Source: Eremomyces bilateralis CBS 781.70
Taxonomy: Eukaryota > Ascomycota > Dothideomycetes > Eremomycetales > Eremomycetaceae
Direction of reading: 5' to 3'
DNA: 64,000 nucleotides
Assembly: GCF_010015585.1 (NCBI RefSeq)
Contig: NW_022985075.1
Location: 310,001 to 374,000, forward strand
Numbering within the stretch: the stretch's first letter is position 1; each line of letters starts with the position of its first letter. This document shows positions 42,365 to 61,959 of the stretch, in pieces. Below the pieces are notes generated by a model, which saw only the letters and a list, made by a program, of their open reading frames with translations, had not been told where the DNA came from and did not search any database. The position numbers and the translations under genes are program-made.

Positions 42365-43310
42365 TTAAGCCTTCAGTTGATTTGATAGAGCACCAACGTC
42401 TAGAGGGTGAGGAAGTGGATTGCCTGCCCACTCCGCAACCTCAGTACAGATTTTGGCCACCTCGGTCACAACACCCTCTCCGTTTCCCATTGCAAGGCTA
42501 GCTTTAAGATGGCTTCTTGCTTGTCTGGTGGAGCCACTCGCAGTAATAGCTGTTGCAATTAATAGCTGCGTTTGATGTTCGGCGAGCACACCCGATTTAT
42601 TTGCGCCTGCAACGCTGTAGCCCCATACCACTGTGTTTGTAGCCAGCCTCATCTCAGGAAACCCGATCGAAAGCAGTTCCCGCACTTCAGGATTGTTGAC
42701 CTTTTCGTATGTCCTAGCAATCATGGCTTTTCCTTCTTCTAGATGTACCCCCGCATCCAAGTCGCCCCTAATTGAATTAACACTTTTCCAGGGAATCGTT
42801 GAACGATAGTCCGGCTCCTAGCCTTTCGTTTCAACATACCGCACTTTCTGAGCCCCAATAAATTCAATATTTCTTCGCTGGAGGACATTTACAATGCCCA
42901 GGCCCGCAGGTACTGTCCATGGAATGCCAACGAATGGCCAGATAACCGTGATACATTCTCTTATTTTGTAGAATATCGCCTTGATTTCTTCAATATCTGT
43001 CGTACCTTCAATTGCTTCTTCAAAAAGCTTGGACGCACAGTCTCCTCTATGCGTGCCGACAAAGACCGCGGCCTATATCTCCTTGTCAGTGGGATGCATA
43101 TCACCGCAGGTTGTCTTGTCTTTGGTGAAAACGTACCAAGACAGCATAGCTGTAATACTTCCATTCGTCCTCTCCAAATGAGAGCAGACGCTTCCTTAGC
43201 GACGTCACCAATTCCGATGAAAAACCAGGTGCCCCGGGTCTGATATTCGCCGAAACATACCGCGCTTCAAATTCCGCTTGCTCATCGCCAGTTGGCTTTG
43301 ATTGTGCCAT
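42365..43310 (-). CDS. CMD/AhpD-like protein 1 (cluster gene A)
   Basis: Start ATG 43308-43310. Exon 1 has GDEQAEFEARYVSANIRPGA. An intron ends near 43074. Exon 2 has AAVFVGTHRGDCASKLFEEA and VIWPFVGIPWTVPAGLGIVN. A second intron runs about 42849-42779. Exon 3 has GVHLEEGKAMIARTYEKVNN and SGSTRQARSHLKASLAMGNG. It ends NQLKA. Aligned by eye it is a clear paralogue of the protein at 50058-50907. The all-helical look and small size suggest the AhpD/carboxymuconolactone-decarboxylase fold, but the catalytic Cys-x2-Cys of AhpD is absent, so peroxidase activity is not implied. Divergent from the monooxygenase at 43802; the shared promoter carries two cluster motifs. Confidence 0.65.
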
Positions 43311-43543
43311 GTTGAAAAAGTAGCATACAATTTTATGCCTTGCTAATTGTTGCAGTGGTGGAGATGTGGCAGCTCGAGGAATTCGACTAAATGTACATGG
43401 GAAAGGCCAGAAAATATCCCGTAGTAGCTAGGCTAGTGGGATGATTTGGCGCATATTTGAGAGTGCACTCTTTCTCTTTGAGAGGCGGTCCCTTATTCTC
43501 GCGGAGTGGGACGTAGACCTAGTGAGTGAGTGAGTCTGGGCTA

Positions 43544-43556
43544 CGGAAGTGCGGGG
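43544..43556 (+). promoter_or_regulatory. Cluster motif copy 1, CGGAAGTGCGGGG
   Basis: CGG-N6-GGGG site, 234 bp upstream of gene A and about 246 bp upstream of gene B; first of two tandem copies. Confidence 0.55.
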
Positions 43557-43576
43557 AGCGGACCCGGTTTGTGCTA

Positions 43577-43589
43577 CGGAAGAACGGGG
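43577..43589 (+). promoter_or_regulatory. Cluster motif copy 2, CGGAAGAACGGGG
   Basis: CGG-N6-GGGG site, 33 bp after copy 1 and in the same orientation, both within a GCTACGGAAG direct repeat. Confidence 0.55.
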
Positions 43590-43801
43590 GTCTCATGCAT
43601 GGGCGATTCCATTGTTGGCTCACGGTGGAGCAGAGTAAAAAGCATGAGCAAATAAGCGGTCAGTTCGAGTTAAGTACTAGGTGTGGCACCGTGAGGCTGA
43701 AATACAGCAGGAGGTGCGTAGTACGATTCAGATCTCAGGCGAGGAAAATTAACCTTCAGAGCAGCTGTCATTTGCCGCTCATCACGACTGCTTCCATCCA
43801 A

Positions 43802-45490
43802 ATGGATCCTTATATTCCCTCTTTCGATGTCCTCGTTATAGGATGCGGTCCAGTTGGCCTTTTTGCAGCATATCTTCTGGGACAGCGCGGAGTTCAAACC
43901 TTGATTATCGACAAACACGTAACAAGAAGGGGTCAACCCAAAGCCCATGCTATAAATCCACGTTCGTTGGAGATTTTTCGTCAGACCGGCCTGGACGTTC
44001 CTTGTTTACGTCGTGCCGGACTTCATCCACAAGATGTCGACTTGGTCCGCTTTGTTTCTTCCTTTTACGGGTGGGAGTTCGGTAATCTTCCGTACGAGCG
44101 ACAGTTGGACGACGTCAAGGATGTTACCCCTGAGCCGCTGTTCAACATTGATCAGCCCAGTCTGGAAGAGTACCTGCTTTCGGAAGCTCTCGAGTCCCCG
44201 TATGTCATAATTCAAAAGCCAGTCGAGTGGAGGGCGGCTCGAAGCATCGCAAACGGCGATGTAATTTCAACCTTGTACGACCGACAAACGGACAAGTCTT
44301 TTGAAGTCCAATCACGCTACATTATTGCTTGCGATGGATCGCGCTCTACCGCACGAGAAGTTTTGAAGTTCAAGCTCAACCCTCTTCCCGATGTCGAGTG
44401 CAAAACAACGGACTATGTCACTACTCATTTCAAAGCCGACCTGTCGGGTGGGCGCTCCGGTATTCTCTTCTTTATAATGCAGCCCGATGGCTTGAGAACA
44501 TTTATCCGCTATGGTGCGGTTGACTGGGTGCTCGTCTACAGGTTCAATCCCGAAAAAGTTCAGCCTTCGACATTCACTGAAGAAGAGTGTTCCCGCCACA
44601 TTCAGGCAGCTCTAGGAAAAGACGTTGAGTTTGAGATCTTGAGCATCACTATCTGGTCCACCACGCCTCGCATCGTGGAGTCCTACCGCTCCTCCCTGGT
44701 CAAAAATGCGTTCCTTGCTGGCGACTCGGCGCACACATTCTCTCCAACCGGTGGACTGGGTCAAAACACAGGCTTCGGCGATGTCCATAACCTGGTATGG
44801 AAGCTTCTGATGGTCATGAACGGCCATGCTTTGGATATCCTGATGGACTCATATGACGAAGAGCGCATAACAGTAGCAGTTGCGAACGCACGTCAAAGCA
44901 CCGTCAATGAAGCCAAAATGGATGTTTTAGGACAGACTATCAATCCGGCGAGCGAACGCGGCCATGGTAGCCAAGAATGGGAGAATGAAGACTTTCAGTA
45001 CAAAGTTCGAGAAGCGATCCAGCACAATGCCGACCACTTTGACTCGCTTGATCTGCAACTTGGCATGATTTACAACAAGCTGCCGCGACCGACGGACCAG
45101 AATGTTTCCAAATTTGTTCAAAAAGCAGTTCCTGGAGCCCGATTGCCTCATGCTTGGGTCGAATTTGGTGGAAAGGTTGATGCTTCATCCCTGGACCTTG
45201 TGGGCTATTCGGACCTCACTCTACTATGCCCCGACCTCGTGCTTGCCCATGAGCTAGAGTCCCGACTTTCCGCAAATGTACGAGAATTGGTACAAATCAA
45301 GATTCTCGGTAGTCATTTTACCACCAACAATACCGACTGGCTCGATATGCTTTTTACCACGCAAAGGAATCGGGCAGTGCTCGTACGTCCAGATCAGCAT
45401 ATCGCCAGCCTTCTTGATTCTACATCATCTATGGTTCAAGCTTTCAGGTCTATCAACCTCGAAGTCCCCAATCCTCCTTCCTTCTCGTGA
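43802..45490 (+). CDS. Phenol-hydroxylase-type FAD monooxygenase 1 (cluster gene B)
   Basis: NADPH/FAD aromatic ring hydroxylase of the PHBH-fold class A group (phenol 2-monooxygenase/MhpA-like), 562 aa, single exon, start ATG 43802. Motifs: FDVLVIGCGPVGLFAAYLLG (GxGxxG for the FAD ADP part), GQPKAHAINPRSLEIFRQTG, YIIACDGSRSTARE (DG motif) and AFLAGDSAHTFSPTGGLGQN (GD motif). The C-terminal thioredoxin-like domain ends RAVLVRPDQHIAS. Likely ortho-hydroxylates a phenolic intermediate. It is a paralogue of the convergent neighbour at 45763-47529, so the pathway probably includes two similar hydroxylations or two ring-activating steps. No peroxisomal C-terminus. Cytosolic by default. Confidence 0.92.
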   Translation: MDPYIPSFDVLVIGCGPVGLFAAYLLGQRGVQTLIIDKHVTRRGQPKAHAINPRSLEIFRQTGLDVPCLRRAGLHPQDVDLVRFVSSFYGWEFGNLPYERQLDDVKDVTPEPLFNIDQPSLEEYLLSEALESPYVIIQKPVEWRAARSIANGDVISTLYDRQTDKSFEVQSRYIIACDGSRSTAREVLKFKLNPLPDVECKTTDYVTTHFKADLSGGRSGILFFIMQPDGLRTFIRYGAVDWVLVYRFNPEKVQPSTFTEEECSRHIQAALGKDVEFEILSITIWSTTPRIVESYRSSLVKNAFLAGDSAHTFSPTGGLGQNTGFGDVHNLVWKLLMVMNGHALDILMDSYDEERITVAVANARQSTVNEAKMDVLGQTINPASERGHGSQEWENEDFQYKVREAIQHNADHFDSLDLQLGMIYNKLPRPTDQNVSKFVQKAVPGARLPHAWVEFGGKVDASSLDLVGYSDLTLLCPDLVLAHELESRLSANVRELVQIKILGSHFTTNNTDWLDMLFTTQRNRAVLVRPDQHIASLLDSTSSMVQAFRSINLEVPNPPSFS

Positions 45491-45762
45491 CAGCTTCCTA
45501 GCTTATCAAAAGCTCTGGTAGTAGCTGAACCAGATACATAAACCAAGTTGGGCCCATGATAGAGAGAGAGTAGACAGATAAAATGATAACTGGCAATTCA
45601 TGAAATGACTCAATGAGTCGTCTTAAATAGTAAAGTCGAGTTGATGCCGTATTGAAGTGACATGTTTGGGACTCGGCAGGGTCCTATCGCACTTGTCACT
45701 GGTTCAAGCAACTTCGGGAAAGGATTTTCTCTTGCGGCAAGCAAATCTATTGATACAAATTT

Positions 45763-47529
45763 TTAGACGCAGAGACTCAAGCACTCTACAAGGTCCTCTT
45801 TCGATCCAATGAATCCCATGATGTGTTGATCTGGTCTCACTAAGAGCGCCGCCGATGGAGACAAATGTGCGGCCCTTATCCAAGCCGCAGGAATTCGCCG
45901 CTCCTTCACATCGACAACTACCACAAGATCCTTCAGATCTTCAATCCAAGAGGAGTGGAATTTAACTGCAAAAAGCGTCAGTTTCCTTTCGGATACTAAG
46001 TCAAGCGTTGACGCCTTCCTTCCAACGCCATCGATCTGAAGCAGCCACGCGTGGGGTAATCGTGCACCACACTCGAAACTCGGTTCGTATAGGGAGCAAT
46101 CTTTGCGAAGAAGCTCTTGCGGAGACTTCGAAGCCTCGACATCATTGTATACGTATCCCAATTGAAGACCAAGACTGTCAAAATGATCTCGATTCCGCTC
46201 AATCGCCGTGGTGATATCGTTCTTGACCTGAGATTGGAGCATAAGCTCGGGTAATGCCGCTGACATATTTGAGACCGTCTCCAGAACCACCGCATCCAGC
46301 TGCCGCATATGTTGTTCGTTTACGGCAGATTGAATAGAGTTGGCCACCGCGACGGGTCTCCGTTCGGTGGTGTAAGTTTTAAGAAGACGTTGAGGAGTAG
46401 CTGTCAAGCCATCCAAAACAAATCTCATCTTCCAGACGAGGTTATGTGCGTCGGCAATGCCGGTGTTGACTCCGAGCCCTCCCATCGGTGGAAATGTGTG
46501 CGCTGCGTCTCCCGCTAGGAAAATTCGTTGATGACTATCAGAGTAGGAGCTCGCCGTTCTCGGCCACGTTGACCAGATTTGCACAGAATGAATCTTGATA
46601 TCGCTCAGAACGCCCGGACCGATGGCAGTTTTAATCTCTTTTTTGCACCTCTCGACGGTAAAGTAGCCCAAAGGTTCCTGAGTTATATCAGGAACTGGCC
46701 GAGCATATACCCATTCCGGATTTTTGTATCCGATGAAACCGCCATGCCTCGTATCTGGCGAACAAAAGAAGTACAACTGAGCCACTCGTCCATTGGTATA
46801 TGAAGAGAGGTCCATCGTGCAATGTACGGAAACGTAGTTCATCAGACCTCTATCGTCGTCGATCGCCTCCAGCTGGACTCCAGGGATTCGTGACCTAACA
46901 GTGGAATTCGTGCCATCTGCTCCAACGACAAACTTCGACTCCACTTCCAACACCTCGTTATGCCCTCGTTGCTTGATTCTGGACCTCACAATCTGTCTTT
47001 CTGCGTCGTATTCATAGCTTTGCCAATCGTGAGATCGATGAATCGTAACGCGGCCAGTTCCAAGGACCTCTTCTTGCAGTGCTTGCTCCAGAATCGGCTG
47101 TGAAAGATTGAAAAGAGGTTCCGGAGTCAATTCCTCCACGGCTTTATCTTGCCTCTCATAGGGCAAACACCCTATTTCATCTCCCGTTAGGTGTGTTAAA
47201 AACCTGACACGATCGCCTTCCTCCACAGGAACGCCCTTCTGTCTCAATTCGTCCAGGTCAATGCCAGCCTGCCGTAATATCTCGAGTGATCGCGCGTTGA
47301 TAGCATGTGCCTTAGGCTGCCCAAGTCGAAGGGCATGCCGTTCAACAATGGTACTATTGATTCCTTGTCTCGCCAGCAGTAGTGCAGTGACCAATCCAAC
47401 AGGACCCAGTCCCACCACCAGCACAGGTGTAGACAGTGGCGATTTGCTGAAGAGCCTTTCATCCCGCGTGGGAAGTGGATCAAAGTAGGCCATGATTTCT
47501 TGTTTGGAGGTATCGCAGGGCGGTAACAT
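45763..47529 (-). CDS. Phenol-hydroxylase-type FAD monooxygenase 2 (cluster gene C)
   Basis: 588 aa, single exon; first ATG 47527-47529, with a second in-frame Met 12 codons on (MAYFDPLPTRDERLF) that is an equally good start. FAD motifs: VLVVGLGPVGLVTALLLARQ, KFVVGADGTNSTVR and IFLAGDAAHTFPPMGGLGVN, then AALLVRPDQHIMGF at the C-terminus. Shared blocks with gene B (GQPKAHAIN, RSLEI-RQ-G, LTPEPLFNL, HFDSLGLQLGYVYND) show duplication, but divergence is substantial, so distinct substrates are likely. Convergent with gene B, 272 bp between stops. Its own upstream region carries one cluster motif 112 bp from the ATG. Confidence 0.92.
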   Translation of the reverse strand: MLPPCDTSKQEIMAYFDPLPTRDERLFSKSPLSTPVLVVGLGPVGLVTALLLARQGINSTIVERHALRLGQPKAHAINARSLEILRQAGIDLDELRQKGVPVEEGDRVRFLTHLTGDEIGCLPYERQDKAVEELTPEPLFNLSQPILEQALQEEVLGTGRVTIHRSHDWQSYEYDAERQIVRSRIKQRGHNEVLEVESKFVVGADGTNSTVRSRIPGVQLEAIDDDRGLMNYVSVHCTMDLSSYTNGRVAQLYFFCSPDTRHGGFIGYKNPEWVYARPVPDITQEPLGYFTVERCKKEIKTAIGPGVLSDIKIHSVQIWSTWPRTASSYSDSHQRIFLAGDAAHTFPPMGGLGVNTGIADAHNLVWKMRFVLDGLTATPQRLLKTYTTERRPVAVANSIQSAVNEQHMRQLDAVVLETVSNMSAALPELMLQSQVKNDITTAIERNRDHFDSLGLQLGYVYNDVEASKSPQELLRKDCSLYEPSFECGARLPHAWLLQIDGVGRKASTLDLVSERKLTLFAVKFHSSWIEDLKDLVVVVDVKERRIPAAWIRAAHLSPSAALLVRPDQHIMGFIGSKEDLVECLSLCV

Positions 47530-48130
47530 GCATTCGATGACAAGGGCGAGGAATTACTATATAAACCCCTGTTGGCTTGTGCACTCTCGCGGGCTACCTT
47601 TAGCCTTCCGCCTTCGCGGCACCAGCGACTGGGCTAGCTTCGGCAAAACGGGGCAGAGAGCAAGAGCGGAGCTTCGAGGCAGCGCGGCGGGCCGCTTGGC
47701 TAGGGGTAAAAGCGCCCGGTAGGTGCGTGCCGGGAGAGCACCGTCGGTAGAGTGGCGTGGAAGGACGTCATTCGGCAAGGGCAAAGGCGGACCGAGAAAT
47801 GAACGCCCTATATGGTACGGAGTACGGAATATCACCACGCTATCTCAATCAGCTTTTCTACAATAGGTAGCGTTCCCTAACTTAGGTCATCGGAGACATA
47901 GATAGTGGACTATCCCCTTGAAATATCACCAGAAAATTTGAGCACGCAATCCCTATTGGCCATCATATGCTTATCAACCAGACAGTCTGAGCATTTGAAT
48001 TTGAACGCGATGATGCTTCTAAACAGTTCTATATCTCGAACATAAAATAACACACTTTCAATCTGGTTTCCGGGCCCCCTGATGTAAAATAGGGTTATAG
48101 AGCGTCACCTCTTTACTGCTCACCCAAAAA
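47530..48130. promoter_or_regulatory. Promoter of cluster gene C
   Basis: 601 bp between gene C start and the DUF3500 stop. Contains TATATAAA near 47554 and one CGG-N6-GGGG site; 47600-47800 is markedly GC-rich. No gene. Confidence 0.5.
47641..47653 (+). promoter_or_regulatory. Cluster motif copy 3, CGGCAAAACGGGG
   Basis: CGG-N6-GGGG site 112-124 bp upstream of gene C. The central six bases differ most from the other copies. Confidence 0.45.
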
Positions 48131-49445
48131 TTACGTCAGTCTAGCTTCGCGTGGTCGCAACGCGTTGCCGTAGTCGCCAGCATTGGGAGCTCTTTGGATG
48201 GAGTGAATGTGATACTTTTCCGGATTCTTGTTATTCAAGAAAACTCCAGAGTGGTGGTCAAACTCGACAACTACTACCGGACTCTGAATTCGGTAGTAAA
48301 AAGGATCCTCATCACCGTAGCCTCCGACCCAGCTAAACCATGTGTCCTGGAGATGTTTTTGTATCTGCTCTTTTCTCTTCTCCCAAACCGTATCGGGTAG
48401 GTAGATGAGCATTTCGCGCAAGATAGAGAACACGAGCGAGATCTGTGACTCAGACATCGCTGTTAGCCGGATACCCTCATATGGAACAATGCGGTTGTCC
48501 TGGAAGGCACCGCATAAGTGGCGCTGATCAGCTTCGTTCCAACGCCCTGGCTCACAACCTTCCATGCGTGGATCTTTGTACACTTGCGCTGTGCGCTTTA
48601 GGGAATCAGGAAGACTCTGCATCAGAGCAAGCCCAAGCTGCTCTTCTGGACGCATCATGGTAGTGCCCTCCCATATACCCTCATCAATCTCGTTGGGTTC
48701 CGCCCCTATGAAGACGGGTGCAGCCATCATCCAACGTCGGTCCAGATAAACACACATGCAAACATGGTGGCCCCAGAAGTTCCATCCCCAAGCTTTATCG
48801 GCGGATGGCTCTCCGAAAAGGATAAAGTTGTAAGATCGTTGATTAAGTACTTTTGGACCATGGGTCAGTTGTCCGAGGAAGTGGTTGGCTCGCATCGCGT
48901 TAACTAGCTTGGCATATCCCGCAGGTGACAAGGTAGCTTTGATAATTCCAAGGATTGCATCGCTAAGCTGCTCCGAAACTTCGTCCAAACGAAGCCCGTA
49001 CTTCGAGATATATATCTCTGGATTCGACCAGCTCCTCCACTGTCGAGCATTGACAGGATATGTCAATGCCTTTGACTCAGCGGGGGTGCACAACGTAAGA
49101 GCTTGCTCCGCAGCCGTGACAATGGTCTCCGATTGGACACCTTGATCTTCATATTCGTACAAGTTTGGGACGAGGTTTCCTTCAATAGGGTGTTAGCCGC
49201 TTTGCTTAGCGCGAACACATGGAACTCGGGTAACTTATACCGTCAGAAGTCAGGCCTTTGTAGGGTTCTTCCCATAATTTCAGCCACGTCTCAGTAAGCT
49301 TCTTCGCAAAGGGGTTCTTGTAGAACTCGTCTGCCCACGTATGAGCGTCATGATGCGGCAACGCTTCGAATTTTCCGCTCGTCAGGTCAGGTAAGTAAGC
49401 ACGGTATTTGCCCGTTGGGCGTGTATCAACACTTTCATCCTTCAT
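48131..49445 (-). CDS. DUF3500 family protein (cluster gene D)
   Basis: Belongs to the DUF3500 family, biochemical role unknown. Exon 1 has KYRAYLPDLTSGKFEALPHH and LTETWLKLWEEPYKGLTSD. An intron (about 49228-49141) joins it to GVQSETIVTAAEQALTL. Diagnostic later blocks are QLSDAILGIIKATLSPAGYA, FGEPSADKAWGWNFWGHHVC, and at the end HSIQRAPNAGDYGNALR. The ATG at 49445 (MKDESV) is the only clear Met. The frame stays open above it for about 35 codons (LAQSGPVAKQRNQASIVYYT...) without ATG, so a further 5' exon is likely. Divergent from gene E with a motif between. In other organisms DUF3500 proteins often sit with hydrolases, consistent with a catabolic setting (inference). Confidence 0.8.
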
Positions 49446-50057
49446 CTTTTGATAACAAGTAGCTGCGTGCACAGCGGACTTCGCGCGTGTACCAGATGCA
49501 GTGGTGTAGTAAACTATGCTCGCCTGGTTGCGTTGCTTCGCAACTGGTCCGCTTTGAGCCAGATTTGGGAAAATGAGAGTTGTGTACGGAACAGATTAGA
49601 GCAATTTTAGCAACGCTATTGGAACCACAAGACAGTCACAATCCGAAGGGCCTTGATGCCGGGAATCATAGCCGAATTATAGATGACAAGGGTAGGCCAG
49701 AGGATCCCTTTGAGAAACTGCCTCAGAAACAGGTATGAGGTGTCATGATTAGCATGTTGGCCATTTCCGGTTGTCTGGGGGAGGTCGGCCCCCGCTGCGC
49801 CGCAAGTCGTAGGTTGTACCGGCTTCAAGGTTTGATCAAACCCCCACAGAGCCGACAACGGCGAGCCATGTCGGCAATCAAGAACGAGAACGAGCGAAGC
49901 AGCTATCCGTTCATTTCCGATGGGATGCTAGCATTGACTCTACACAGGTATTTGTATGACTGGTAGACTGGTAGAGTACTGATACGTTGCTCTTCAGGCG
50001 ATTCGAAAATCGAAATAGCACTGAAAGCAGCTCCCACCTCCAAGTACATCCAGCACC
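49446..50057. promoter_or_regulatory. Bidirectional promoter, cluster genes D and E
   Basis: 612 bp between divergent genes; the minus-strand side may include an undetected first exon of DUF3500. Contains one CGG-N6-GGGG site. Confidence 0.5.
49768..49780 (+). promoter_or_regulatory. Cluster motif copy 4, CGGTTGTCTGGGG
   Basis: CGG-N6-GGGG site, 278 bp upstream of gene E; differs at a single base from copy 6 at 56413. Confidence 0.55.
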
Positions 50058-50907
50058 ATGTCCGATTTCGACTCCAAGTACGTCACTACCAATAACCGGC
50101 CAGGTGCACCGCAGTATGATGATGCATTCGTCAATTCGTTGAAAGAAGATATGCTATCGGAGGCACCAGACCTAGCGCTAATAGCCGACGCGGTCCTGGT
50201 ATGTTCTTGACAAGCCACGAGACATCCATTGAAATTGTGCTGATTACATCCTGTATCAGTCATCTTGCGCTATTGGGGCGCATCGAGCGGATTTCGTGCC
50301 ACGATTGCTTGATGCCGCACTCCAGACCATTCACCAAGATATCGAGAAATCAAAGGTGTGCTTTGAGCAGTTCAGGGCCGTGGTCATGATATGCTGGCCA
50401 TTCATTGGCATTCCATGGTGTGTCCCGGCCTGTTTGGGCATGGTAAATGTCCTAGAAAAGTATAACCTGCTTTCAATTGCGTACGGTCGCGCCCAGCCTC
50501 CGTTGAGCGATGCACACATCGCCATGGGCCAGGAGCTTCAACAGCGCACCTACGCAAATGTGCAGAATTCCGAAGTGCAAGCCATGCTCCAGAACTGTTT
50601 TGCAGACTTTACATTAACGACTTGGGGGGTCGTGTTCGGCTATTCGCTTGCAGAGACGACGAATAGAGGCATTTTCGAAGCCCACCAGTCGCAGTTGATT
50701 CTTGCCGCGTCCATTGCCTCAAGCGGAGCGACAAGGCAAGCGAGGTCGCATATGACAGGTGCATTGGGCCTCGGGCTTTCAGTGGCTGCAGCCAAGGCTA
50801 TATTGAAGGCTGCGAAGAGACTAAATGAGTGGAACGGTGTCGAAATCAGCGACATTGATGCCGGAGAATTGAATCGACAAATGGAAGCAGCCCAAGCTGC
50901 AAAGTAA
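50058..50907 (+). CDS. CMD/AhpD-like protein 2 (cluster gene E)
   Basis: Start ATG 50058-50060 (MSDFDSKYVTTNNRPGAPQY). One intron (about 50200-50259, GTATGT...TCAG) joins IADAVL to SSCAIGAHRADFVPRLLDAA. It continues with CWPFIGIPWCVPACLGMVNV, SLAETTNRGIFEAHQSQLIL and SGATRQARSHMTGALGLG, and ends MEAAQAAK. Roughly 260 aa. Shared blocks with gene A (W-P-F-x-G-I-P-W, G-x-TRQARSH) prove paralogy. A Cys and a His occur as CAIGAH, reminiscent of AhpD's second Cys and His but with wrong spacing and no first Cys. Fold assignment moderate, function unknown. Conservation of two diverged copies suggests each does something specific, for example binding or rearranging an intermediate. Confidence 0.65.
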
Positions 50908-51087
50908 CGAGATAGATAAACAATCCTATAAGAACTTTGTTCTTGAACCTTAAAAATCTGTACTGGCAAAAACGGAATGCAATTTCTTGCGTACATTGAA
51001 TATGCCAATACCCTTTTGCTATCCAACTGCTGTAACTGCCCTATGCCTTTGAGCCTGGACCAAAATGCCACCTACTGCTTGACTTTA

Positions 51088-53032
51088 TCAGCCCTGAGGA
51101 ATGAATGGTACAAGTAAAAGGCTGTCATATTCGCCGCCAGCATGAATTAAGATTCTGCCGTTGTTCAGTGTTTTGGGAGCATCCACCCAGGGTAACAACT
51201 CAGGTCGCAGGTTGAAGCCAGCAACCGAGAGTTGCATTTTCTCGCCTCGCTCCCAGATCATTCCATGTGGCCACATTTCTATCTCCACTGGCACAATCTC
51301 ACCCTCGCTCTTTAAGGTTTGGATATTGCGATGAGTGTAGTGGGGCTGGTGCGGCGTTGATCGCTCGATGTCCAGTTCCCTATGGCTGACCCGGAGGCGA
51401 CCATGTGCACCTTCAGAGAAGAATACATTTACACGCGGATCTCCTGCTGCATGCATCTCTCGAAGTTTCTCCTTGGCAACCTCGGGATTATCTTGGAGAT
51501 ATCCAACATCAACACACTCAGTTTCAACAAGGCCGCCATTGGCGTCCAACTTCGAGAACTTCGTGAAAAGATCAATGTCGTCGTTTCCGATGGCCTGGAC
51601 CCAAAGCTTCAGTTTGAAATAACCTGTCAGCTCAGCCTTGCAGGGAAAGGTGTAAGTAAACTTGGCAATGTCCTTCCTGCTGTCTAGGTTAACTGTATCC
51701 GGGTTCGTTGGTTTATTCCCCCATTCCAGACAGGATGTCGATGCATTCAGGTAGAGAGGTATTGATTGTTGCCTCGTGAGAGGAAATTCAAGCTCCGGCC
51801 GATTGACAATGTCCTGATTCCCTGGGTTGAGGATGGACAAGCGGACCTTGGGTGTAAATTCCCAGCCGTTGGATTTGTCCTTCATGAAGTGGTCGTAGAA
51901 CTTTCGAAGATCTTCAACATTTTGAGGGTAGTACAGATCTAAGATCGTTAGCGTCAAGCTAAACTTGGTTAGAGCATGCGGATCTACCCGGCCATTCATG
52001 ACTATTGTGAACCCTCAACCACTTCTTCGGGCTACTCGATTCGGACCATCCGCGGAATGTACCCCGTGTGTGCAACATATTAGTCCAGCTTGCAACAACG
52101 TACAGTGGTATCTTAATGTTTTCCACCTTAGCTCGACGGTCTTCCCAATAATCGTTCCAAGTTGGGTACTTCGCAGTCATTGCGGACACGTCTTCCGTGC
52201 GACCTAACCCTACAAAGCAATTATCCAGAAGATTTTGTTGAAACTCCGCATCTGGAATGCCACCACGTTGGACGGTGTCATTGTACAAATCATTCCATCC
52301 TTCCCACGGAGCCAGACAGGTCAGATGAGGAGGCGATTCCGCACCGACCCACCACTGGGTTTGTGCGAGATATGAGTTGCCAGCCATAGTCACTCTGACA
52401 TGTCGTAAGTTCTTTGTTAAATATGATGGAATTGTCATTACTAACCGCTTATTGGACCACGGCTGCTCAGCAATCCATTCAACAATGTCGTATCCATCCT
52501 TGCCGTCTAATGTGGAATTGATGTATACATCACCTTCGGACATCCACGTACCCCGGGTATCTTTACTTGAGACTTAATACGAATCTGATCTGTTTGAGTA
52601 GGATAGCAACTTACCTGGGTGAACCAAAGCATAGCCATGCAAACACCAGTATGCCGGATCTAGGGCTTCGAACTTCTCCAATGAACTGACAGTCTTTTGA
52701 GGGATTCCATTGCGCCACGGAGCGCGGTCGGTCCCCATGCGGTTCAAGCCACCCTGCTTTCCAAAACCAGCACTCGATATGATCGCAGGAATTATTTTGC
52801 CGCCATTGGGTGGCCGAAAGACGTCTGTGTATATCGTGGTCCCGTCTCGAAGCCTCAACTCGACATCCTTTTCCCAGAGGATATCGCAAGGCAGCGCCAA
52901 TGCTCCATCTTTCAGAATAGAACCCTTTGTAAGGAGTTCAGTCTCTTGTTTGAACCCCAGATAGAGGGCATGGCCTTGAGTAGTTGAGGGGGACTCTTTC
53001 AGAATAATATCAATCTCACCGATCTTGTCCAT
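51088..53032 (-). CDS. CocE/NonD-type alpha/beta hydrolase (cluster gene F)
   Basis: Serine hydrolase of the X-Pro dipeptidyl-peptidase S15/CocE group: acyl ester or amide cleavage. The model has four exons. Exon 1 has VELRLRDGTTIYTDVFRPPN and ends CLHGYALVHP. Then come DTRGTWMSEGDVY, nucleophile region VTMAGNSYLAQTQWW (Ser in G-N-S-Y), a cap region, IPLYVVASWTN and HNSHEWP, joined to DLYYPQNVEDLRKFYDHFMK. A C-terminal jelly-roll-like domain follows (TGYFKLKLWVQAIGNDDIDL, HRELDIERSTPHQPHYTH), ending LVPFIPQG. The intron inside the nucleophile region lacks stops and is a multiple of three. In this family such enzymes cut cocaine-type esters and lactones, so here it may release an aromatic acid or alcohol for hydroxylation. 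Divergent from gene G. Confidence 0.85.
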
Positions 53033-53187
53033 TCTTGTGGATCTTGAATGAAAAATCAGTTATATTTAAGCCGAAGTAGAGGGAAATAATCAGACTGAGA
53101 AATGCTAGCTAAAACAAACCTTTTGAACTAGACCCTAATGGCTAGATACTAATGTAGGAATATGGTAAGCCATGAGCAAATCAGGAT

Positions 53188-53200
53188 CGGAAGCGTGGGG
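53188..53200 (+). promoter_or_regulatory. Cluster motif copy 5, CGGAAGCGTGGGG
   Basis: CGG-N6-GGGG site 156 bp from gene F and 159 bp from gene G. Confidence 0.55.
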
Positions 53201-53209
53201 CCGGCCTAT

Positions 53210-53223
53210 CGGAAGTGGTGGGG
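53210..53223 (+). promoter_or_regulatory. Near-copy of cluster motif, CGGAAGTGGTGGGG
   Basis: Same ATCGGAAG start as copy 5, 22 bp on, but with seven bases between CGG and GGGG. Listed as a degenerate partner. Confidence 0.35.
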
Positions 53224-53358
53224 TGGCACATTGTTTACTAACTGCTCTTCACTGCTCGGTGCTCCTTTCCAGCTTCGACCCATACTGGCAGTCATCAATC
53301 ACATTCTAGTTTCGGAAATCACTCTGAACAAAATCTTGCTCTTGTTCAAACCTACGCG

Positions 53359-54281
53359 ATGGCAAGTTGGTCAAAGCTAGTTCGTTTCACGGATTTAGCA
53401 GGCAATATCCATTTTGGAGAGCCGACAGATGACTTCAGTCACGCCAAAGTCTGGGAAGGAATTTCGCTCTTCAGCCTTGCAAGAACTGACCGGGTCGAAA
53501 GGATTGCAGCTGTAGGTTCCCAAAGCAATTACACAATGACCAGTTTTCTCACTGTACCAAGCTTTTGCCGCCTTATCAACCCGATTCGATCCTTTGCATA
53601 GGCCTCAACTACCTAGATCATGCAAAAGAATGCGTAAGGCTCTTGTTCCCAACACCCAACAACTGAATGTCTGGTAACCTCTGGCAATAGAACCGCCCTA
53701 TACCCAGCTATCCAGTCCTATTCTACAAGCCGAAACTCACCGTGAATGGACCTTTCTCTGATGTTGTGGTTCCACAACACTGTAAGAGCCTGGACTACGA
53801 AAATGAGCTTTGCGTTGTGATGGCACGAGATGCAAAAGATGTCGCTGAGAGTGACGCCATTGACTATATCTTGGGCTATACTGTTGGCAATGACGTGTCA
53901 TCCCGGGAATGGCAGCAACAGGAGCGTAGTGGTGGTCAGTTTTCGTTTGCGAAGTCGTGCGATGGTTTCCTGCCATTTGGTCCAGCAATCGTCTCGGCTC
54001 GTCTCGTCCCGGATCCTCAAAATCTGGCTCTCGTAACTAGGGTTAACGGAGAGGTTGTGCAAGATGGTTCTACATGTAATATGATTTTCAGCGTTGCGAA
54101 GATTATATCATTCTTATCTCAGGGAACCACAATTCCAGCAGGAGCCCTGATTATGACTGGTACTCCAGCAGGAGTTGCAGCCTTCAAAACATCACCCCCT
54201 GTTTGGCTAAGGAATGGCGACGTGGTCGAGTGTGCTATCTCGGGTATAGGTTTCATCAAGAACAAGATGGTCACCCAATAG
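53359..54281 (+). CDS. Fumarylacetoacetate hydrolase-family protein (cluster gene G)
   Basis: FAH superfamily (acylpyruvate hydrolase/decarboxylase type), typically acting late in aromatic breakdown on ring-cleavage products. Start ATG 53359 (MASWSKLVRFTD). Exon 1 ends RIAA. Exon 2 gives LLPPYQPDSILCIGLNYLDH, then AKEC. Exon 3 opens NRPIPSYPVLFYKPK. Metal ligands are seen in LDYENELCVV (E-x-E), followed by AIDYILGYTVGNDVSSREWQ, SFAKSCDGFLPFGPAIV, and GALIMTGTPAGVAAF near the end. Length of about 275 aa fits the family. Its presence argues for a C-C bond hydrolysis step in the pathway. Confidence 0.9.
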
Positions 54282-54779
54282 ACTAGTGTAGGATCGGAAG
54301 CACTACTTGAGCTAAAGGCTTGCTATTACAGATTCATCAAACTTCCATGATTCGATCCAAGAGTTGAACAGTTAGCTGCATAGACATCAATAGTCTCGCG
54401 ACCTTACCTCAGTTGCCAACATTGGCGACGGAAACCCATCGGATCGGAACGCTACGACCTACCTGCTCTCGTTAGGTGCCGCAATGGACGAATTTAGCTT
54501 TGTACCAGGTAGCGTGCTCAAGCTGTACGATTTCATAGTATATTACATATATGCAGATTATTTTGGATTGAGTGGAGAAGGTACAATGTTATTGAATTGG
54601 CTACTCAGTGAAGCACACAGCAGAGCGACCTACTGGGTACCTTATCGGATAATTCATGTAGAGCCGGGGATTACAGTTTGCTTGTGCGCGCATATTCATA
54701 CTATAACGTTAAGTTAACTAGTGGTTGTTGTTAACTAAGTTATAACTAACTATATTATGTGAGTGACTAACAGTCGTCC
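54282..54779. other. Convergent spacer
   Basis: 3' ends of genes G and H face each other; AT-rich, no gene. TTAACTAGTGG/GTTAACTA forms a weak palindrome near 54713-54737. Confidence 0.45.
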
Positions 54780-56299
54780 TCAGCGAAGCTCGGGTGCATC
54801 ATACTCCTTGGACCAGCCCACTGCTTTTGATATCGTGGTGAATGCACCTCCAACATTCAATGCCGCCGCCATAAAGTACAGAAATAGCTTCCCGCAGACT
54901 GAGTCTGTGTCTGGGAACTATATGAAGTCAGCAAATTCATCACAGATGAAGCTCTGCTACTTACACTTTGAGATGTCCCTCCGCTTTTTTTAACCCACTC
55001 GAAAGCACGGGGAACCATCTTATCCTCGTAATCTGTGACAGCCCTCTCATAGTCCTCATATTCTAGTGCTCTAGTCGATTTAAGTTCTGCCAATTGTAAA
55101 AGGGGCTCCAGAGCATCTGCGCAGTCATGTAAAGCCTGATTTGCACCCATGCCACGAGATGGTAGCATTGGATGGATTGCATCACCAAGCAGCCACACTT
55201 GAGGATGCCCGACCTCGAAATTTCCCGGTGAAGCAGCTTTAGCTTTCTTTCTCCACCCTAGAGAGATAGGAGTGGACACACGGGGTTTGACAATGTAGAT
55301 GTCGTCTTCGCTCACGACGTTAACGATATCGGTGAAACCTGGATGCCAATTTTTGACTTTTTCGAGCATCAGAGACTTTCTATCCACGACTGCCTCTAGG
55401 TTGGGGATGTCTGGTGTAGATGCCCAGTTGAACCCTACCATGATAGAGGCTTCTTCTTCATTGTAAATTGACTGCTTCTTCAAGGTGTCAGTGTCGTTCC
55501 CCCGGTCATCCATGTTCACTTGTTTGTCAGGCATATAGACTACGCAGTCAGTAAGACGCTGGCAACAGATTAAGGGGCTTGGGTAAGTGTGAGGTATATT
55601 CGTACCGGACATGAATGCCATAACGCCTTTGGAAGCGCATGCAATGCTCCCAGATTCGATCAATTGCTGGGGCAGGGTGCTCAACAACGACGGCGGCAGG
55701 GCTCCTTTCGATAGAAAGCCTTGTCTATCAGTCAACTCGACAAGATTTGACGCTCCGATCTGTGTATTGGAGCTGCTCCGGTTGCCATCAGCTGCAATGA
55801 GAATATCCGCATCATCCGTCGTTCCGTCCGCAAAGTGTGCCCTAACTCCCGATAGACCTTGCGTAACGCTATCGAGGGCCTCGTAGCGAACAAACTTTTT
55901 GCCGTACTGTAGGATGTTTCTTTCTCTCAACAGCTGTTGCAACAAGTCTCGGAGAAGTGCTCGATTGATAGGGGCTGACTTCGTGTACGCCGAATACTTG
56001 CGGAGGTCGAGAACGAGACTGAGCTGCGAGTCATAGAACACAGGTGCGGATGGCACGACACCTCCCGATCTTCCGAAACGCTGAAGCACAGAATTGTACT
56101 GCTCCTTAGTAAGGCATGCTCGAAAGCCAGTTAAAGCAGCAGCACCTAACCGGATTTGATATCCCCCTCGATTGGCGTCGTACTCGTCGCGTTCATAAAC
56201 CACGACATCTATCGGGGCTTTGCTGTGATTGATAAGGCCGTTCGCAATAAGAGATCCTGAAAGACCGCCACCAATGACTATTACCTTGAGAGGCGCCAT
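54780..56299 (-). CDS. Salicylate-hydroxylase-type FAD monooxygenase (cluster gene H)
   Basis: Class A flavoprotein monooxygenase, third in the cluster and of a different subgroup from B and C. Start ATG 56297-56299 (MAPLKVIVIGGGLSGSLIAN). FAD motifs: GGGLSG, ADILIAADGNRSS, and VWLLGDAIHPMLPSRGMGAN, then QALHDCADALEPL. The long exon ends KKSGGTSQS; a typical GTAAGT intron (about 54963-54922) leads to a second exon FPDTDSVCGKLFLYFMAAAL, then NVGGAFTTISKAVGWSKEYD, ending at TGA 54780-54782. Without splicing the frame would end at 54857. The second exon adds a hydrophobic tail that might associate with membrane. Substrate is likely an aromatic or polycyclic ring; TetX-like enzymes are alternative relatives. 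Confidence 0.88.
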
Positions 56300-56412
56300 G
56301 GCTCAGAAAGATTGAACAAAGATATATTTTCACGCCTCTTTGTGAAGAAGAAACATACACATTTGTATCCGCTGCTGGAAACCAGCATGAAACATGCTCC
56401 AAAATAGTGCCT

Positions 56413-56425
56413 CGGTTGTGTGGGG
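56413..56425 (+). promoter_or_regulatory. Cluster motif copy 6, CGGTTGTGTGGGG
   Basis: CGG-N6-GGGG site, 114 bp upstream of gene H. Confidence 0.55.
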
Positions 56426-56576
56426 TGGTGTGTAGGAAGCAACAAAGAGCTCGCCGCAGTGGAGTAAAACGGAAGGACACTCCCATCTTTAAAGAAGAGA
56501 CAAGAGAATAGAGTGTAGATGCAGATAACCCGGTATATATATTTAATTATAATATTCAGATAACTTAGTTAACTAT

Positions 56577-56594
56577 TGATTGATTGATTGATTC
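56577..56594. repeat. (GATT)n microsatellite
   Basis: Four to five GATT units in tandem in the upstream region of gene H. Confidence 0.7.
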
Positions 56595-57165
56595 CTGCAC
56601 CCGTTCGGGCCAACATCGGCTAGCCCACTTGGGGAACTAACTAACTTATTATTCTTTCGTCTTCCTCTAGTTATTTTCTTTATCCCTTTTTTCCTTGTGC
56701 ATAAAGTCTTTAAGCCCACTGATCTGACTGAATTAGATGTCTAGTTTCCAATCTCAACAAGTATTAATATAGGAAGAATCGCGAAATATATGTACGTATA
56801 TAGACGGTAATACTGGACCGATATTCTGCTGCCTTGGTAGGCGGTCATTACGATAGCAGCATTTCGCTAACATTATATTGAAGTGGAAACCAAGTTGACT
56901 AATATCGTGTTATATGAAAATGAAACTCGATGGAACTCTCTAGAGAGTTCTTGAATGTTTGCGCAAGCTATTATTACAATTATCTCCGAGTGTTATGGTT
57001 CCAGGCCTGTGGCTTGTCTCCTGAATGGTAGTCACGTGACTAAGTCAACTGTCGAAGTCTTCGACATCGCGCACGCGTCGTAGATAGCTCTTCTTCTTTA
57101 GCTTTGCAGTAAATGAAAGTGGTTCTCGTAACTTCTGCGATCAAACCGTCTCACCGAGGACATAA

Positions 57166-59280
57166 CTAGCGCCTGGTTTGCCCATGACCTGATTCAAATC
57201 TCGCACCTCGCGAGCGCCGAAACCGCCAAGTGCTCATCGACTGGCGAAGAGCTTTGCCTTTGATATAGAATGGAATTCCAAGGAGGCCCAAAAGGCTCAT
57301 AATACCAGCATATGTACCAAAACATCCATCGAACCCAGCTCTGGTGACAAAGTCGACAACGCCATAACTGATACCAAACCCGACGATGTTACGGTAAGCA
57401 CCGACGGCAATAACTATTGGACCAGCCAAGTCTGGAAAGCACTCGATACCGTACGTGGTAGATATTACGTTAGCTGCTATGAATCCGAACTGCTGGACCC
57501 CTGTCATGACTAGCGGAACAGCCCAATGGAATCGATCAGCGTGACTGCATGATATTCCGAAGATGAGCGTGCCAACAGCGCCACAAATGACGGGGAGGAT
57601 CAAGTTTGGAAGTTGATGCTCGGGCTGTCGTTAAAAATGTCAGCATGGAGTATTTAGACCAACTGGCTAGGTTAAGTACTGACCTCGTGTACCCCGTTAT
57701 TCCTCTTGGCTAGGAATTGGATAACCCTATCCCCACCAAAACCTATAACAGGGATCGCGACCAAGCTAGAAACAGCAAGGGGGATAGTGGACAGCCCAAT
57801 TTTATCCGGACTCCAGCCATAGTTGATGACAAGAACATTGCCTAGGACAAGACCAGACGACAGAACCACGCCAATGAAGCATGCATTTAGGCATACAAGC
57901 TTACGATGTTGTTAGATAAGTACATGTACAAAGCCGAAAGGAGCGCCTACCCATATGATGTTCGGGAAGAGAGCACACCGGAGAAGGTCCGTGCAAGTCT
58001 CCCACATTTTCTGGGCGCCAGTTTCGCTCGAAGTAAGTCGAAGGCTGTAGAGGTAGGACCGATCCCGACCGCTCGGACGTACAGGCTCAACGAAGCCATC
58101 CGTTCCTTTAGGAGATAGGCCCGCTGGATATGTTAGCTCTTCGGAATATGCCGATAAATTGCAGTAACTCACCAAGGTCGGCTTCCGTTCGAGCCCAGCT
58201 AGTCTCGGGTATAACAAGGCCTATCAACACTAATGCAGTGGCTCCGATGAAAGCCAGAATCCAGTAATACCACCTCCAAGATAGAGCGGAAACGATATAC
58301 GTGGACGCAATACCAAGTCCTGTCCCAACAATCCCACCGGTGGACCATAGGACGGCGAGTTTAGAATTACGATTGTGAACGTAGTTGATGTCTTGAATAA
58401 TGAGCGGCGCCAGTGACTCGACTGCTCCCACACCGAGACCTAGTACACAACGTGCTCCAATATGAGAGTAGAGTCCGTGATCTTTGCCATTGGATGCTGC
58501 TGCCCAGCACAGGCATACGACTACGATAGCCGCATCGAGGACCATCATCAACCTTGTACCAGTTAATTGTGCCCCGAGGATCGACAATATTCCGCCCAGG
58601 CCAACAAATAGCGATGGAAGTGTCCCAAGCTGACTAATGGTCTGTTGACTCGGCTTTCCAGGCACAGATGGAAAGGATATGCCTTCGTAATGAGTCTCGC
58701 GGCGAATGAGTGCACCACTGGGCGGAATGCCACCAGGGGGTAGACCGCTCGGAGGAAGACCATCCGATGGCAGAACACCAGGAGGCAGACCACCAGGGGG
58801 CAGACCATTAGGAGGAAGACCACCTGGCGGCATGCCAGCGGAACCCATGGACATCATGTTCGGATCTAAGTCTTGATAATAGAGACTAACGGTTGGTAAG
58901 ATGGCTGCAATAGATTGCACAGCTGTCAATCCAGCAGCAGCAACTGAGACTATTAGAAAGGCGCCCCAAGAGATGATGATACTCTTACAAAGGCAAATCG
59001 TGAATAGAACCGCCCACTTGCGCCTCTCTGGGATTCTCAATGGATCTGAAGACTTTGTCAGCATGGTGGTCGCTGAAATTCTATCGTGGTATCTCCGCGC
59101 TGTAGTACCATTGGGATCCGATGATGGAACTGGAATCAACTGGATGGTTCCCGTGGAGTCATAGAGGTTGATAGTGCCATCAGCAACTTCCTCCCTATCG
59201 CCTCGCGTGGTCATATCTCTTCCTGCCGATGCAGTTCTTTCCTCTTGGTGGACCACACTGGGTTCTTTCTCGGGGTCCAT
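57166..59280 (-). CDS. MFS transporter with Pro-Gly repeat loop (cluster gene I)
   Basis: Major facilitator superfamily permease (sugar/aromatic-acid-like), probably importing the cluster substrate. Start ATG 59278-59280 (MDPEKEPSVVHQ). TM1 is ISWGAFLIVSVAAAGLTAVQ. A loop of Leu-Pro-Pro-Gly-Gly-type pentapeptides follows (58715-58833 in DNA), then TM2 onward (LPSLFVGLGGILSILGAQLT, RCVLGLGVGAVESLAPLIIQ) with a SxLAVLWSTGGIVGTGLG block and the PETSWARTEADL end of TM6. Short introns lead to AGLSPKGTDGFVEPV, then ACFIGVVLSSGLVLGNVLVI, NYGWSPDKIGLSTIPLAVSS, and the last exon LPNLILPVICGAVGTLIFGI. It ends GHGQTRR. Divergent from gene J. Confidence 0.85.
58715..58833 (-). repeat. 15-bp tandem repeat encoding LPPGG-type pentapeptides
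   Basis: About eight units with period 15 encode MPPGG, LPPNG, LPPGG, LPPGV, LPSDG, LPPSG, LPPGG and IPPSG. Located in the first external loop of the MFS protein, directly after TM1. Units are imperfect at DNA level, so the array is not brand-new. Confidence 0.8.
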
Positions 59281-60010
59281 TGTAACGGCAAGTCAAAGTT
59301 GTCCACCACGGTAAAAGAGAATGAATGAGCCAAAATACCAACGAGAGTTATATGCGATGTTCTCTATGACCCAAGTCCGCAGCACTGAGCGATCGGCCTT
59401 TGCGGGGTACATATCATGTTTATGTACAAGGTGTTAATGACGTTCTTCTAACCTGACACAAGGTTCACCTCTGTATTCCTATGGGCCAAAGGATAGAAAA
59501 AGGGCAATATTTGTGGCGCTTCATATCATAGCGATCAGCTATCATCCGTACCTCACTTAACTTGGTGCCATACGGAGGCAATGAGCCGGTCGATTAAGCA
59601 CAAATTACTCTATCCAAGATCCACATTGTCTCAGGCAATAGGCCAGGGTTGATTTCCGAGAAGAGATGGCCTTGAATTGGGGCGAGGTCGGATATCGAAG
59701 TCGGCATTGTGGGCATACTCACTGTCCCCGCACAGCCGATATCTGGCGGGGAGTATGATCTTTATTGCTCGCGTTCATACGCCACCAAAATCCGACGTGC
59801 TGGTGTTTACTGTGCACTCTGCATTAGCTGGGGTTAATTGTCACAAGCAAGAGTGGAGCACCCTACCGCTTCTACTAGTTATATGTCATGCGCTCGTGCG
59901 CTATCTTGAGCTCTTAACTCCTGGACGGTCGGCTTCACACGAACAAATTGTTGCATCCTGCTCACCATTCGAGAAGATAGACATCAGTCCGTCCCCCAGG
60001 TTCGGAAAAA
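59281..60010. promoter_or_regulatory. Bidirectional promoter, cluster genes I and J
   Basis: 730 bp between divergent starts with one CGG-N6-GGGG site in reverse orientation. No gene; open frame 59677-60051 on the plus strand has no recognisable domain. Confidence 0.5.
59726..59738 (-). promoter_or_regulatory. Cluster motif copy 7, CGGCTGTGCGGGG
   Basis: CGG-N6-GGGG site read on the minus strand, 273 bp upstream of gene J and 446 bp upstream of gene I. Confidence 0.55.
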
Positions 60011-61144
60011 ATGGTCGAAAAGCAAACAATCGAATGGTTTGGTATGGCTGATATGGGTTGATTATATCGCCGTCATTGCTGATGAAACCAAGGCGCCACC
60101 ACTTTTCGACTTAGAGCTAAAGGCTTGACAATCTTTCTTGACACGTGGTTGGAGAGGCCGTCAAACATACCAACATATGCCTCCATTGACGATATTGATG
60201 AATGCGATTACATCTTTATCAGCCATGCGCATTTCGATCAGTATGAATTATGAACTGACGCAAGACGCCCTGAACTGACTCTTTGCAGTCTCCCTGGCGC
60301 TGATCGCCTAGCGAAAAAGACCGGCGCAACTATAGTTGGAAACGGCGAGGCCGTGAGTGTCATGCGTGCGGCTGGCGTACCAGAAGAACAGCTTCTGCCC
60401 GTTGCCGGCGGAGAAAGGATACCTCTTTTCTCAAAGTCTATCAGGGACGAAGTGCGATCGCAGTTCAGGGAGTTTCCAAGAAGTCGCGGGCCCCCAGGTC
60501 CGCCTAGGCCAGATGTATCCAAAGCTTCACTGTCGGTGCATGTATACCCCAGTCTTCACTGCCTCATGCCTGGGCCGCCAGGTCAACATCTCGATTTCAT
60601 CGACACAGCAACTGAGTACATTGGCGGCTCTGATCCATATGCTGGCACAATCGACATTACTATGGGGATGCGATATGGCTTGCTGGCTGCTGCGAAAGCT
60701 CCTCTGAGCGCCCGTGCTCAAATGCCTCCAGATTTCAGGCCATTTGTCGAATACATAGCGGATGAGAGAAACAAGTTCTCTAACTTTGACGGAGGCCAAA
60801 TGATGTATAACTTTTTTCTCGGCGAAAAGACACTATTATATATGTCACATCTAGGCGGATATTCGGGTATCCTGAAAGAGCTCGAACCACAACCCGACAT
60901 TCTTGTTATGGGCATCGCTGGGCGCGGCAATATCAATGGCCGGCCTTTTGATGGCTCAGCTGCACAGTGTGCGACGAACATCATCAAGTGGCTGGGTGAG
61001 CCGGAAAAAATTATATGGTGTCTGCACGATAAGGCTCCAATCAAACCATTCCGCGTGGAAACCGAGGCAGCAGCGAAGATGGTAGAGGCCGAAACTCGTT
61101 CGCGAGTTTTGACTTTGGAACATGCAACTGTGTATGATCTATAG
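60011..61144 (+). CDS. Metallo-beta-lactamase-fold hydrolase, UlaG-like (cluster gene J)
   Basis: Zn-dependent hydrolase of the MBL superfamily (lactone or phosphodiester type). Start ATG 60011-60013; a first exon of only 31 nt (MVEKQTIEWF) is joined via intron 60042-60092 to GATTFRLRAKGLTIFLDTWL. A second intron (about 60240-60288) splits the metal motif: CDYIFISHAHFDH is joined to LPGADRLAKKTGAT, completing H-x-H-x-D-H. It continues with GVPEEQLLPVAGGERIPLF, HVYPSLHCLMPG (further metal His), LLYMSHLGGYSGI and IIWCLHDKAPIKPF, and ends ATVYDL. About 340 aa, full length. A lactonase or ester-opening role would suit a degradative cluster; inferred only. Confidence 0.88.
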
Positions 61145-61851: not shown

Positions 61852-61959
61852 TATTTGTTTTTGGTCAATTGAGGAGTCGTCGTGAGGGCTTGTGGAAAAG
61901 TGTTCCGGGGGGCATCCCTGGGCGGTGTGACAGAAGATTTCCTGTAACTAGTGACTTTG

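Follow-up and report, generated by a model that had tools for sequence, protein, structure and literature searches.

The window analyzed here is a 64,000-nucleotide stretch of the genome of Eremomyces bilateralis CBS 781.70, corresponding to positions 310001-374000 of contig C9 (the genome comprises 26.6 Mb in 62 contigs). Between 42.4 and 61.1 kb of this window lies a cluster of ten genes, here designated A to J, whose products were assigned from Pfam, solved-structure matches and public records. All six promoter regions of this cluster contain copies of a bipartite sequence element with the consensus (A/T)CGG-N5-6-(C/T)GGGG. The genes are as follows, in window coordinates.

42365..43310, minus strand: gene A, CMD/AhpD-like (Pfam CMD at E 0.037, below the cut-off; start set by eye)
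43802..45490, plus strand: gene B, FAD_binding_3 aromatic hydroxylase (Pfam)
45763..47529, minus strand: gene C, FAD_binding_3 aromatic hydroxylase (41% to B; alternative start at 47493)
48131..49445, minus strand: gene D, DUF3500, candidate ring-opening enzyme (Pfam E 2e-104; start according to public protein P0001)
50058..50907, plus strand: gene E, rare CMD-like protein (no Pfam match of its own)
51088..53032, minus strand: gene F, Peptidase_S15/PepX_C (CocE-type) hydrolase (spliced, spread over several frames)
53359..54281, plus strand: gene G, FAA hydrolase family (spliced)
54857..56299, minus strand: gene H, FAD_binding_3 hydroxylase (3' coordinate provisional; salicylate hydroxylase among its solved matches)
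57166..59280, minus strand: gene I, MFS transporter (spliced; 3' coordinate provisional)
60011..61144, plus strand: gene J, metallo-hydrolase (metallo-beta-lactamase families in public record P0133; the exon alone has no Pfam match)

Genes A and E are paralogous (36% and 43% across two stretches), and the relatives of gene E amount to 12 proteins in total, gene E counted in. The top solved-structure match of gene C is 2,4-dichlorophenol 6-monooxygenase. Because of this gene content and the literature on ring opening by DUF3500 proteins, the cluster is likely to serve aromatic catabolism, its substrate presumably being some hydroxylated aromatic.

The element in the six promoter regions

The promoter regions were delimited as 43311-43801 (P1), 47530-48130 (P2), 49446-50057 (P3), 53033-53358 (P4), 56300-57165 (P5) and 59281-60010 (P6), which together amount to ~3.6 kb; setting the start of P2 at 47534 instead of 47530 alters no count. 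They hold 11 sites, of which nine are exact copies of CGGN6GGGG and two have a spacer of seven bases (N7). P3 has three sites, P1, P4 and P6 have two each, and P2 and P5 have one each.

43544..43556, plus strand: CGGAAGTGCGGGG, P1, between A and B
43577..43589, plus strand: CGGAAGAACGGGG, P1, 33 bp after the site at 43544
47641..47653, plus strand: CGGCAAAACGGGG, P2, 118 bp from the gene C start; outside the CreA consensus SYGGRG
49768..49780, plus strand: CGGTTGTCTGGGG, P3, between D and E
49790..49802, minus strand: CGGCGCAGCGGGG, P3, new; forms a convergent pair with the site at 49768
49842..49854, minus strand: CGGCTCTGTGGGG, P3, new
53188..53200, plus strand: CGGAAGCGTGGGG, P4, between F and G
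53210..53223, plus strand: CGGAAGTGGTGGGG, N7 site in P4, 22 bp after the site at 53188
56413..56425, plus strand: CGGTTGTGTGGGG, P5, 120 bp from the gene H start
59394..59407, plus strand: CGGCCTTTGCGGGG, N7 site in P6, 120 bp from the gene I start; new
59726..59738, minus strand: CGGCTGTGCGGGG, P6, 279 bp from the gene J start

The original prediction had reported seven exact copies, a near-copy at 53210 and at least one copy in each promoter region. All of these were recovered at the positions given, the near-copy being one of the two N7 sites; what had been overlooked are two exact minus-strand copies (49790 and 49842) and the N7 site at 59394, and the accompanying list of six central spacers had omitted that of the site at 47641 (CAAAAC). 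As it had also stated, the spacer at 34.1-35.9 kb contains no exact copy. The 15.2 kb between the promoters, made up of the genes with their introns and of short 3' gaps, is free of copies with a gap of six or seven bases. Seven additional exact copies occur in the window outside the promoters, five of them within stop-to-stop frames that reach 150 aa or more. The element is a real cluster-wide cis-element, which occurs in one spacing class, with one orientation of its halves, within the cluster only in promoters and in all six of them.

Measured from its centre, each site is 118-284 bp away from the closest start codon. For genes C, H and I (starts at 47529, 56299 and 59280) a site is centred 118-120 bp away, which is a tighter placing than needed. 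The members of the site pairs are separated by 22 bp in P4, 22 bp in P3 and 33 bp in P1, so that paired sites perhaps share one helix face, although three such pairs prove nothing.

Both halves of the element are strict, since versions with one mismatch are not enriched in the promoters (6 versus 6.9 expected for mismatches in the GGGG half, 1 versus 4.7 for those in the CGG half). The base that precedes GGGG is C or T in all 11 sites (C in six and T in five; P 2e-4 versus background), the base that precedes CGG is T or A in nine, and nine sites read SYGGGG at their second half. The distance between the halves is also constrained. When the gaps between CGG and a following GGGG were tallied in the promoters, nine instances were found at gap 6 and six at gap 7 (four of the latter being GGGGG runs of gap-6 sites); gaps 0-5 and 8-10 were empty, and no single gap from 11 to 20 had more than two. 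A CGG stands at gap 6 ahead of nine of the 26 GGGG words (binomial P 4e-11, uncorrected), and the gap profile of the background has no peak at 6.

Enrichment over background

The background of 245 kb consisted of 20 ten-kb pieces picked for holding a sub-pattern of the element, together with the remainder of the window, and it over-counts the motif because the pieces were chosen in this way. For the final counts and control sets, ATG-started frames of 120 aa were masked in background and promoters alike, which left 115 kb of noncoding sequence; G+C contents were similar (0.470 in the promoters, 0.497 in the background). The nine exact copies in the six promoters compare with 0.57 expected at the noncoding density (18 in 115 kb; 16-fold, Poisson P 1e-8) and with 0.71 expected from the count in the whole genome (5253 in 26.6 Mb). 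When the six promoters were simulated 20,000 times with a first-order Markov model, the mean was 0.30 copies and the maximum four, and never were all six regions hit. The original prediction had named equal density in the genome as the outcome that would speak against it; in the sample used here the densities were 2.5/kb in the cluster promoters and 0.16/kb in the noncoding background, and the motif survives. The halves taken singly are not enriched in the promoters (CGG 99 versus 105, GGGG 26 versus 27), so only their arrangement is. The window as a whole is unremarkable, because its 16 copies (8.9 expected from shuffles) were reached in three of 100 shuffles.

The size of the enrichment varies with the mask applied. 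When stop-to-stop frames of at least 120 aa were masked, six of the nine copies remained free (0.33 expected, P 1e-6); at 100 aa this number dropped to two (0.30 expected, P 0.04), and at 150 or 200 aa it was seven (0.85 and 1.48 expected, P 3e-5 and 9e-4). Masking of ATG-started frames (100-200 aa) instead left all nine free against 1.2-1.7 expected in the whole cluster's free sequence (P 4e-6 to 9e-5).

Since the word was chosen after it had been seen, the raw P-value needs correcting. Among the 344,064 dyads of three plus four bases with gaps of 0-20, CGGN6GGGG is the sole one that is present in all six promoters. We compared this with 1000 control sets of six noncoding regions each (on average 3,595 bases per set, versus 3,626 for the cluster promoters). 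Some dyad was present in all six regions in 72 of these sets; it was equally significant in seven sets when judged against all background and in two when judged against the noncoding background. A dyad with at least nine copies occurred in one set, and dyads ended by CGG or CCG in two, these having six and seven copies and much weaker P-values. A less fair mask, in which stop-to-stop frames were masked in the background but not in the cluster promoters, gave 40 of 700 control sets with an all-six dyad, seven as significant, none with nine copies and none of the CGG type. After correction, the fair figure for chance is therefore about 0.2 to 0.7 in 100, and not the raw 1e-8.

Candidate regulators of the element

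Based on the present data, the element is probably the binding site of one pathway-specific factor, most likely an unlinked activator of the Zn2Cys6 class, which is predicted to switch on all ten genes. The class assignment derives from the CGG triplet plus the fixed spacing: CGG is present in all 11 sites, by construction, and the gap is six bases in nine sites and seven in two. A Zn2Cys6 protein would read CGG together with an unusual second half, YGGGG, in the same orientation, and would activate the ten genes together in response to an aromatic substrate or intermediate. The gene content is consistent with a single pathway. The factor would be encoded outside the window, because the window shows no Zn2Cys6 pattern in any of its six frames, where an intron could conceal one. 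Of the original proposal, the bipartite element that starts with CGG, is confined to promoters and spans the cluster is supported; the Zn2Cys6 factor suggested there by CGG stays a candidate, no gene for one having been recognised in the window.

The closest known site is that of TerR from the terrein cluster of Aspergillus terreus, TCGGHHWYHCGGH (PMC4360782). Like the present element, it is a bipartite direct repeat that starts with CGG, with T preceding CGG in the strong sites, it has a spacer of five bases to the second half (here CGG-N5-YGG), and three copies can be found within one divergent promoter (PMC4360782). In contrast, the second half is YGGGG with an invariant GGGG here, whereas TerR sites have CGG followed by A, C or T; two of our sites are one base longer; and the TerR gene resides in its own cluster (PMC4360782), whereas the window contains no recognised gene of this kind. 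The TerR consensus has no match in the six promoters. The element would thus function in the manner of a TerR site without being one; it is ordinary in kind and unusual in its GGGG half. With respect to the pathway, the TanR/TanX module for gallic acid of A. niger offers a likeness in that a Zn2Cys6 activator governs an aromatic pathway (PMC10512348), and the DUF3500 protein AN10530 of A. nidulans has been proposed as a ring-opener in the gallic acid pathway (PMC12388069); as far as its main text goes, the TanR/TanX paper mentions neither CGG nor MEME, hence there is no site to compare (PMC10512348). An exact-string search for spellings of the motif, and for spellings only, returned no paper. 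Only a handful of regulators have been described for aromatic catabolism in fungi (PMC12388069). A strict cluster-wide element of 13-14 bases would serve both as bait for the regulator and as a search string for the rest of the regulon.

Several observations weigh against the assignment to a dedicated Zn2Cys6 activator. Pathway-specific regulators are often encoded within or beside their own cluster, and it is in the window that the Zn2Cys6 pattern is missing. Moreover, the second half-site is not the CGG triplet usual for this class: CGGN5CGG lacking the additional GG shows no enrichment in the promoters (2 versus 1.9 expected). By count alone, three AT-rich dyads outrank the motif, being present in three, three and one of the six promoters, and the word shows a mild genome-wide excess (5253 versus 4406 when read backwards). 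The genomic distribution of two sub-patterns, in contrast, speaks for the assignment: CGGAAGNNYGGGG has 58 copies and CGGYTGTNYGGGG 24, versus 31 and 16 when read backwards, and six of these 82 copies fall within the cluster, a number never reached in 20,000 random placements (other stretches of 16.2 kb hold at most two). These counts carry less weight because the patterns were derived from the copies and the reasoning is circular. What speaks against it is that outside the cluster the sub-patterns are only moderately rarer in noncoding DNA. Of the 76 outside copies, 22 were examined, and eight of them lie outside ATG-started frames of 120 aa, compared to six of six in the cluster (P 0.016); with a stop-to-stop mask, one of 22 is noncoding, compared to three of six inside (P 0.022). 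One outside copy that is free of long frames (L008:5748) has five neighbouring frames without a Pfam match. Lastly, a paralogous locus, described below, lacks the motif.

Among the alternatives, a composite element is a possibility to be taken seriously, though a doubtful one. It would have a pathway-specific CGG-binding factor beside CreA, or beside another GGGG-reading C2H2 factor, with the sites of activator and repressor merged in one. The SYGGGG reading of nine of the 11 copies fits this idea, since only 0.223 of the GGGG words in the noncoding background read so (P 5e-5), and SYGGGG is found 12 times in the promoters versus 6.0 expected (P 0.02). In A. nidulans, CreA and AlcR share the same or very close sites at ~80% of co-occupied promoters (PMC8844935), but competition for sites is not a universal mechanism of CreA (PMC8844935). 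The fit to CreA is also not obligatory, because the sole P2 site and one P1 site read ACGGGG, outside SYGGRG, and the lack of SYGGRG enrichment given below counts against this reading too. In its most specific form, which we consider tentatively and with slightly more reserve, a Zn2Cys6 half-site and a CreA-type GGGG half would be locked six to seven bases apart in all six promoters, so that induction and carbon repression of the ten genes would pass through one 13-base unit, with the Zn2Cys6 factor again unlinked. Should CreA recognise the GGGG half, the element would represent a compact natural case in which induction and carbon repression share one site.

It is unlikely, although GGGG is commoner in C2H2 than in Zn2Cys6 sites, that all 13-14 bases are read by a factor from a different class, be it C2H2 or some other. 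A CGG with a fixed spacing is typical of Zn2Cys6 sites (PMC12719309, PMC4360782).

Very unlikely is a general regulator of gluconeogenesis or acetate utilization, of the AcuK/AcuM or the Cat8/FacB type. AcuK/AcuM are the same kind of protein, share the CGG half-site, the fixed spacing and the link to carbon metabolism (PMC11373862, PMC12719309), and a catabolic cluster could respond to them, but their sites differ in spacing and second half. Their form CGGN7CGG (CCGN7CCG; PMC11373862) is not enriched in the cluster promoters (1 versus 1.4 expected). We also inspected the surrounding stretches of two isocitrate-lyase-family genes and the 1,200 bases upstream of the match to phosphoenolpyruvate carboxykinase (PEPCK). 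Upstream of these three genes CGGN7CGG is present (three copies in L043, one in L045 and one in L047), whereas CGGN6GGGG is not; the lone N6 copy at these loci (L046:3011) lies downstream of its gene. A form resembling the carbon source-responsive element has no match in the promoters.

Plain CreA sites with an accidental CGG, which the original prediction had regarded as the main rival, are highly improbable. The GGGG half and its two preceding bases do fit the CreA/Mig1 consensus SYGGRG (PMC8844935) in nine of the 11 copies, but CreA sites involve no CGG at a set distance (PMC8844935). SYGGRG is not enriched in the promoters (18 versus 16.2 expected, P 0.36), nine of the 18 being copies of the motif, and the whole signal resides in the spacing of CGG, which is confined to one class. 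CreA alone is insufficient, because its binding needs no CGG at gap 6. Two further patterns counted in the six promoters, AGGGG and CGGN6CCG, were not enriched either. Equally improbable is chance combined with the post-hoc choice of the word: the 72 control sets with an all-six dyad and the seven that were as significant show that such words can arise, but hardly any had nine copies or the CGG type, no simulation exceeded four copies, and the N7 copies and the C/T rule fell outside the choice of the word.

Pathway and related loci

For A. nidulans, the DUF3500 protein AN10530 has been put forward as the enzyme that opens the ring of 1,2,3,5-tetrahydroxybenzene in the gallate route (PMC12388069). 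This compound is one of eight fungal ring-opening points in a database paper of 2026, and the DUF3500-type central pathway is a recent one (PMC13094099). Gene D would supply a DUF3500 protein for the 1,2,3,5-tetrahydroxybenzene (gallate) central pathway, although the second DUF3500 gene described below may be the canonical one. The database paper gives DUF3550 beside IPR021889, where DUF3500 is apparently intended (PMC13094099). The sole solved-structure match of gene D (48131-49445) at E ≤0.1 is 9x86, 'Amc20' (E 2e-19), which provides a handle on the workings of the family.

A second DUF3500 gene is located on contig C22 (C22:153599-158418; L022-L023, L029, L031), tail-to-tail with a gene for an FAA hydrolase, so that the pairing of D and G recurs in the genome. 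This locus is possibly the canonical gallate locus of Eremomyces bilateralis. One copy of CGGN6GGGG, CGGTTTCCTGGGG, is present upstream of the C22 gene (L022:890), ~353 bp from its ATG; given the noncoding density of CGGN5YGGGG (14 in 115 kb), it is a ~1-in-7 event per 1.2 kb and therefore lends no real support to conservation of the motif. The paralogous locus on contig C7 (C7:685451-693316; L028, L037, L041) combines an FAD hydroxylase, an FAA hydrolase and, by eye, a frame for an extradiol-type (VOC) dioxygenase, and it contains no N6 or N7 copy of the motif.

Site pairs were also tried as a means of finding further members of the regulon. Direct pairs were non-selective, with 27 in the genome, many of them G-rich. 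Convergent pairs occur at three distinct places, which are P3, a long open frame that by eye is oxysterol-binding-like, and a G-rich sequence.

As judged from adjacent locus tags or contigs of equal size, three species apparently have relatives of genes E and J in linkage: Sporothrix stenoceras (tags 002397 for E and 002396 for J), S. bragantina (002667 and 002668) and A. pseudoustus. By the same signs, and among the matches listed, relatives of D and J are apparently linked in A. pseudoustus and Leptodontidium; genes D and J have at least 120 relatives each. The contigs concerned measure 36,272 and 51,114 bases in A. pseudoustus and 765,990 bases in Leptodontidium. Further relatives in A. pseudoustus (P0007, P0129) sit on contigs of differing sizes. 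Taken from contig sizes and locus tags, this suggests a real cluster with a patchy distribution across fungi.

No tRNA genes were detected across the window (ARAGORN, bacterial mode). In the genome, DHquinase_I genes occur at three places, AROM-type repressors being among the possibilities. The N-terminal part of gene I (58700-58850) contains, by eye, an unusual glycine/proline-rich repeat of the PPGGLPP type. The cluster is flanked by two inverted-repeat elements that resemble miniature inverted-repeat transposable elements, the left one at 41655-42082 (196-nt arms, 89%) and the right one at 61677-61853 (26-nt arms, 85%, starting with TACAGTCAA); they may be a trace of movement or rearrangement of the cluster.

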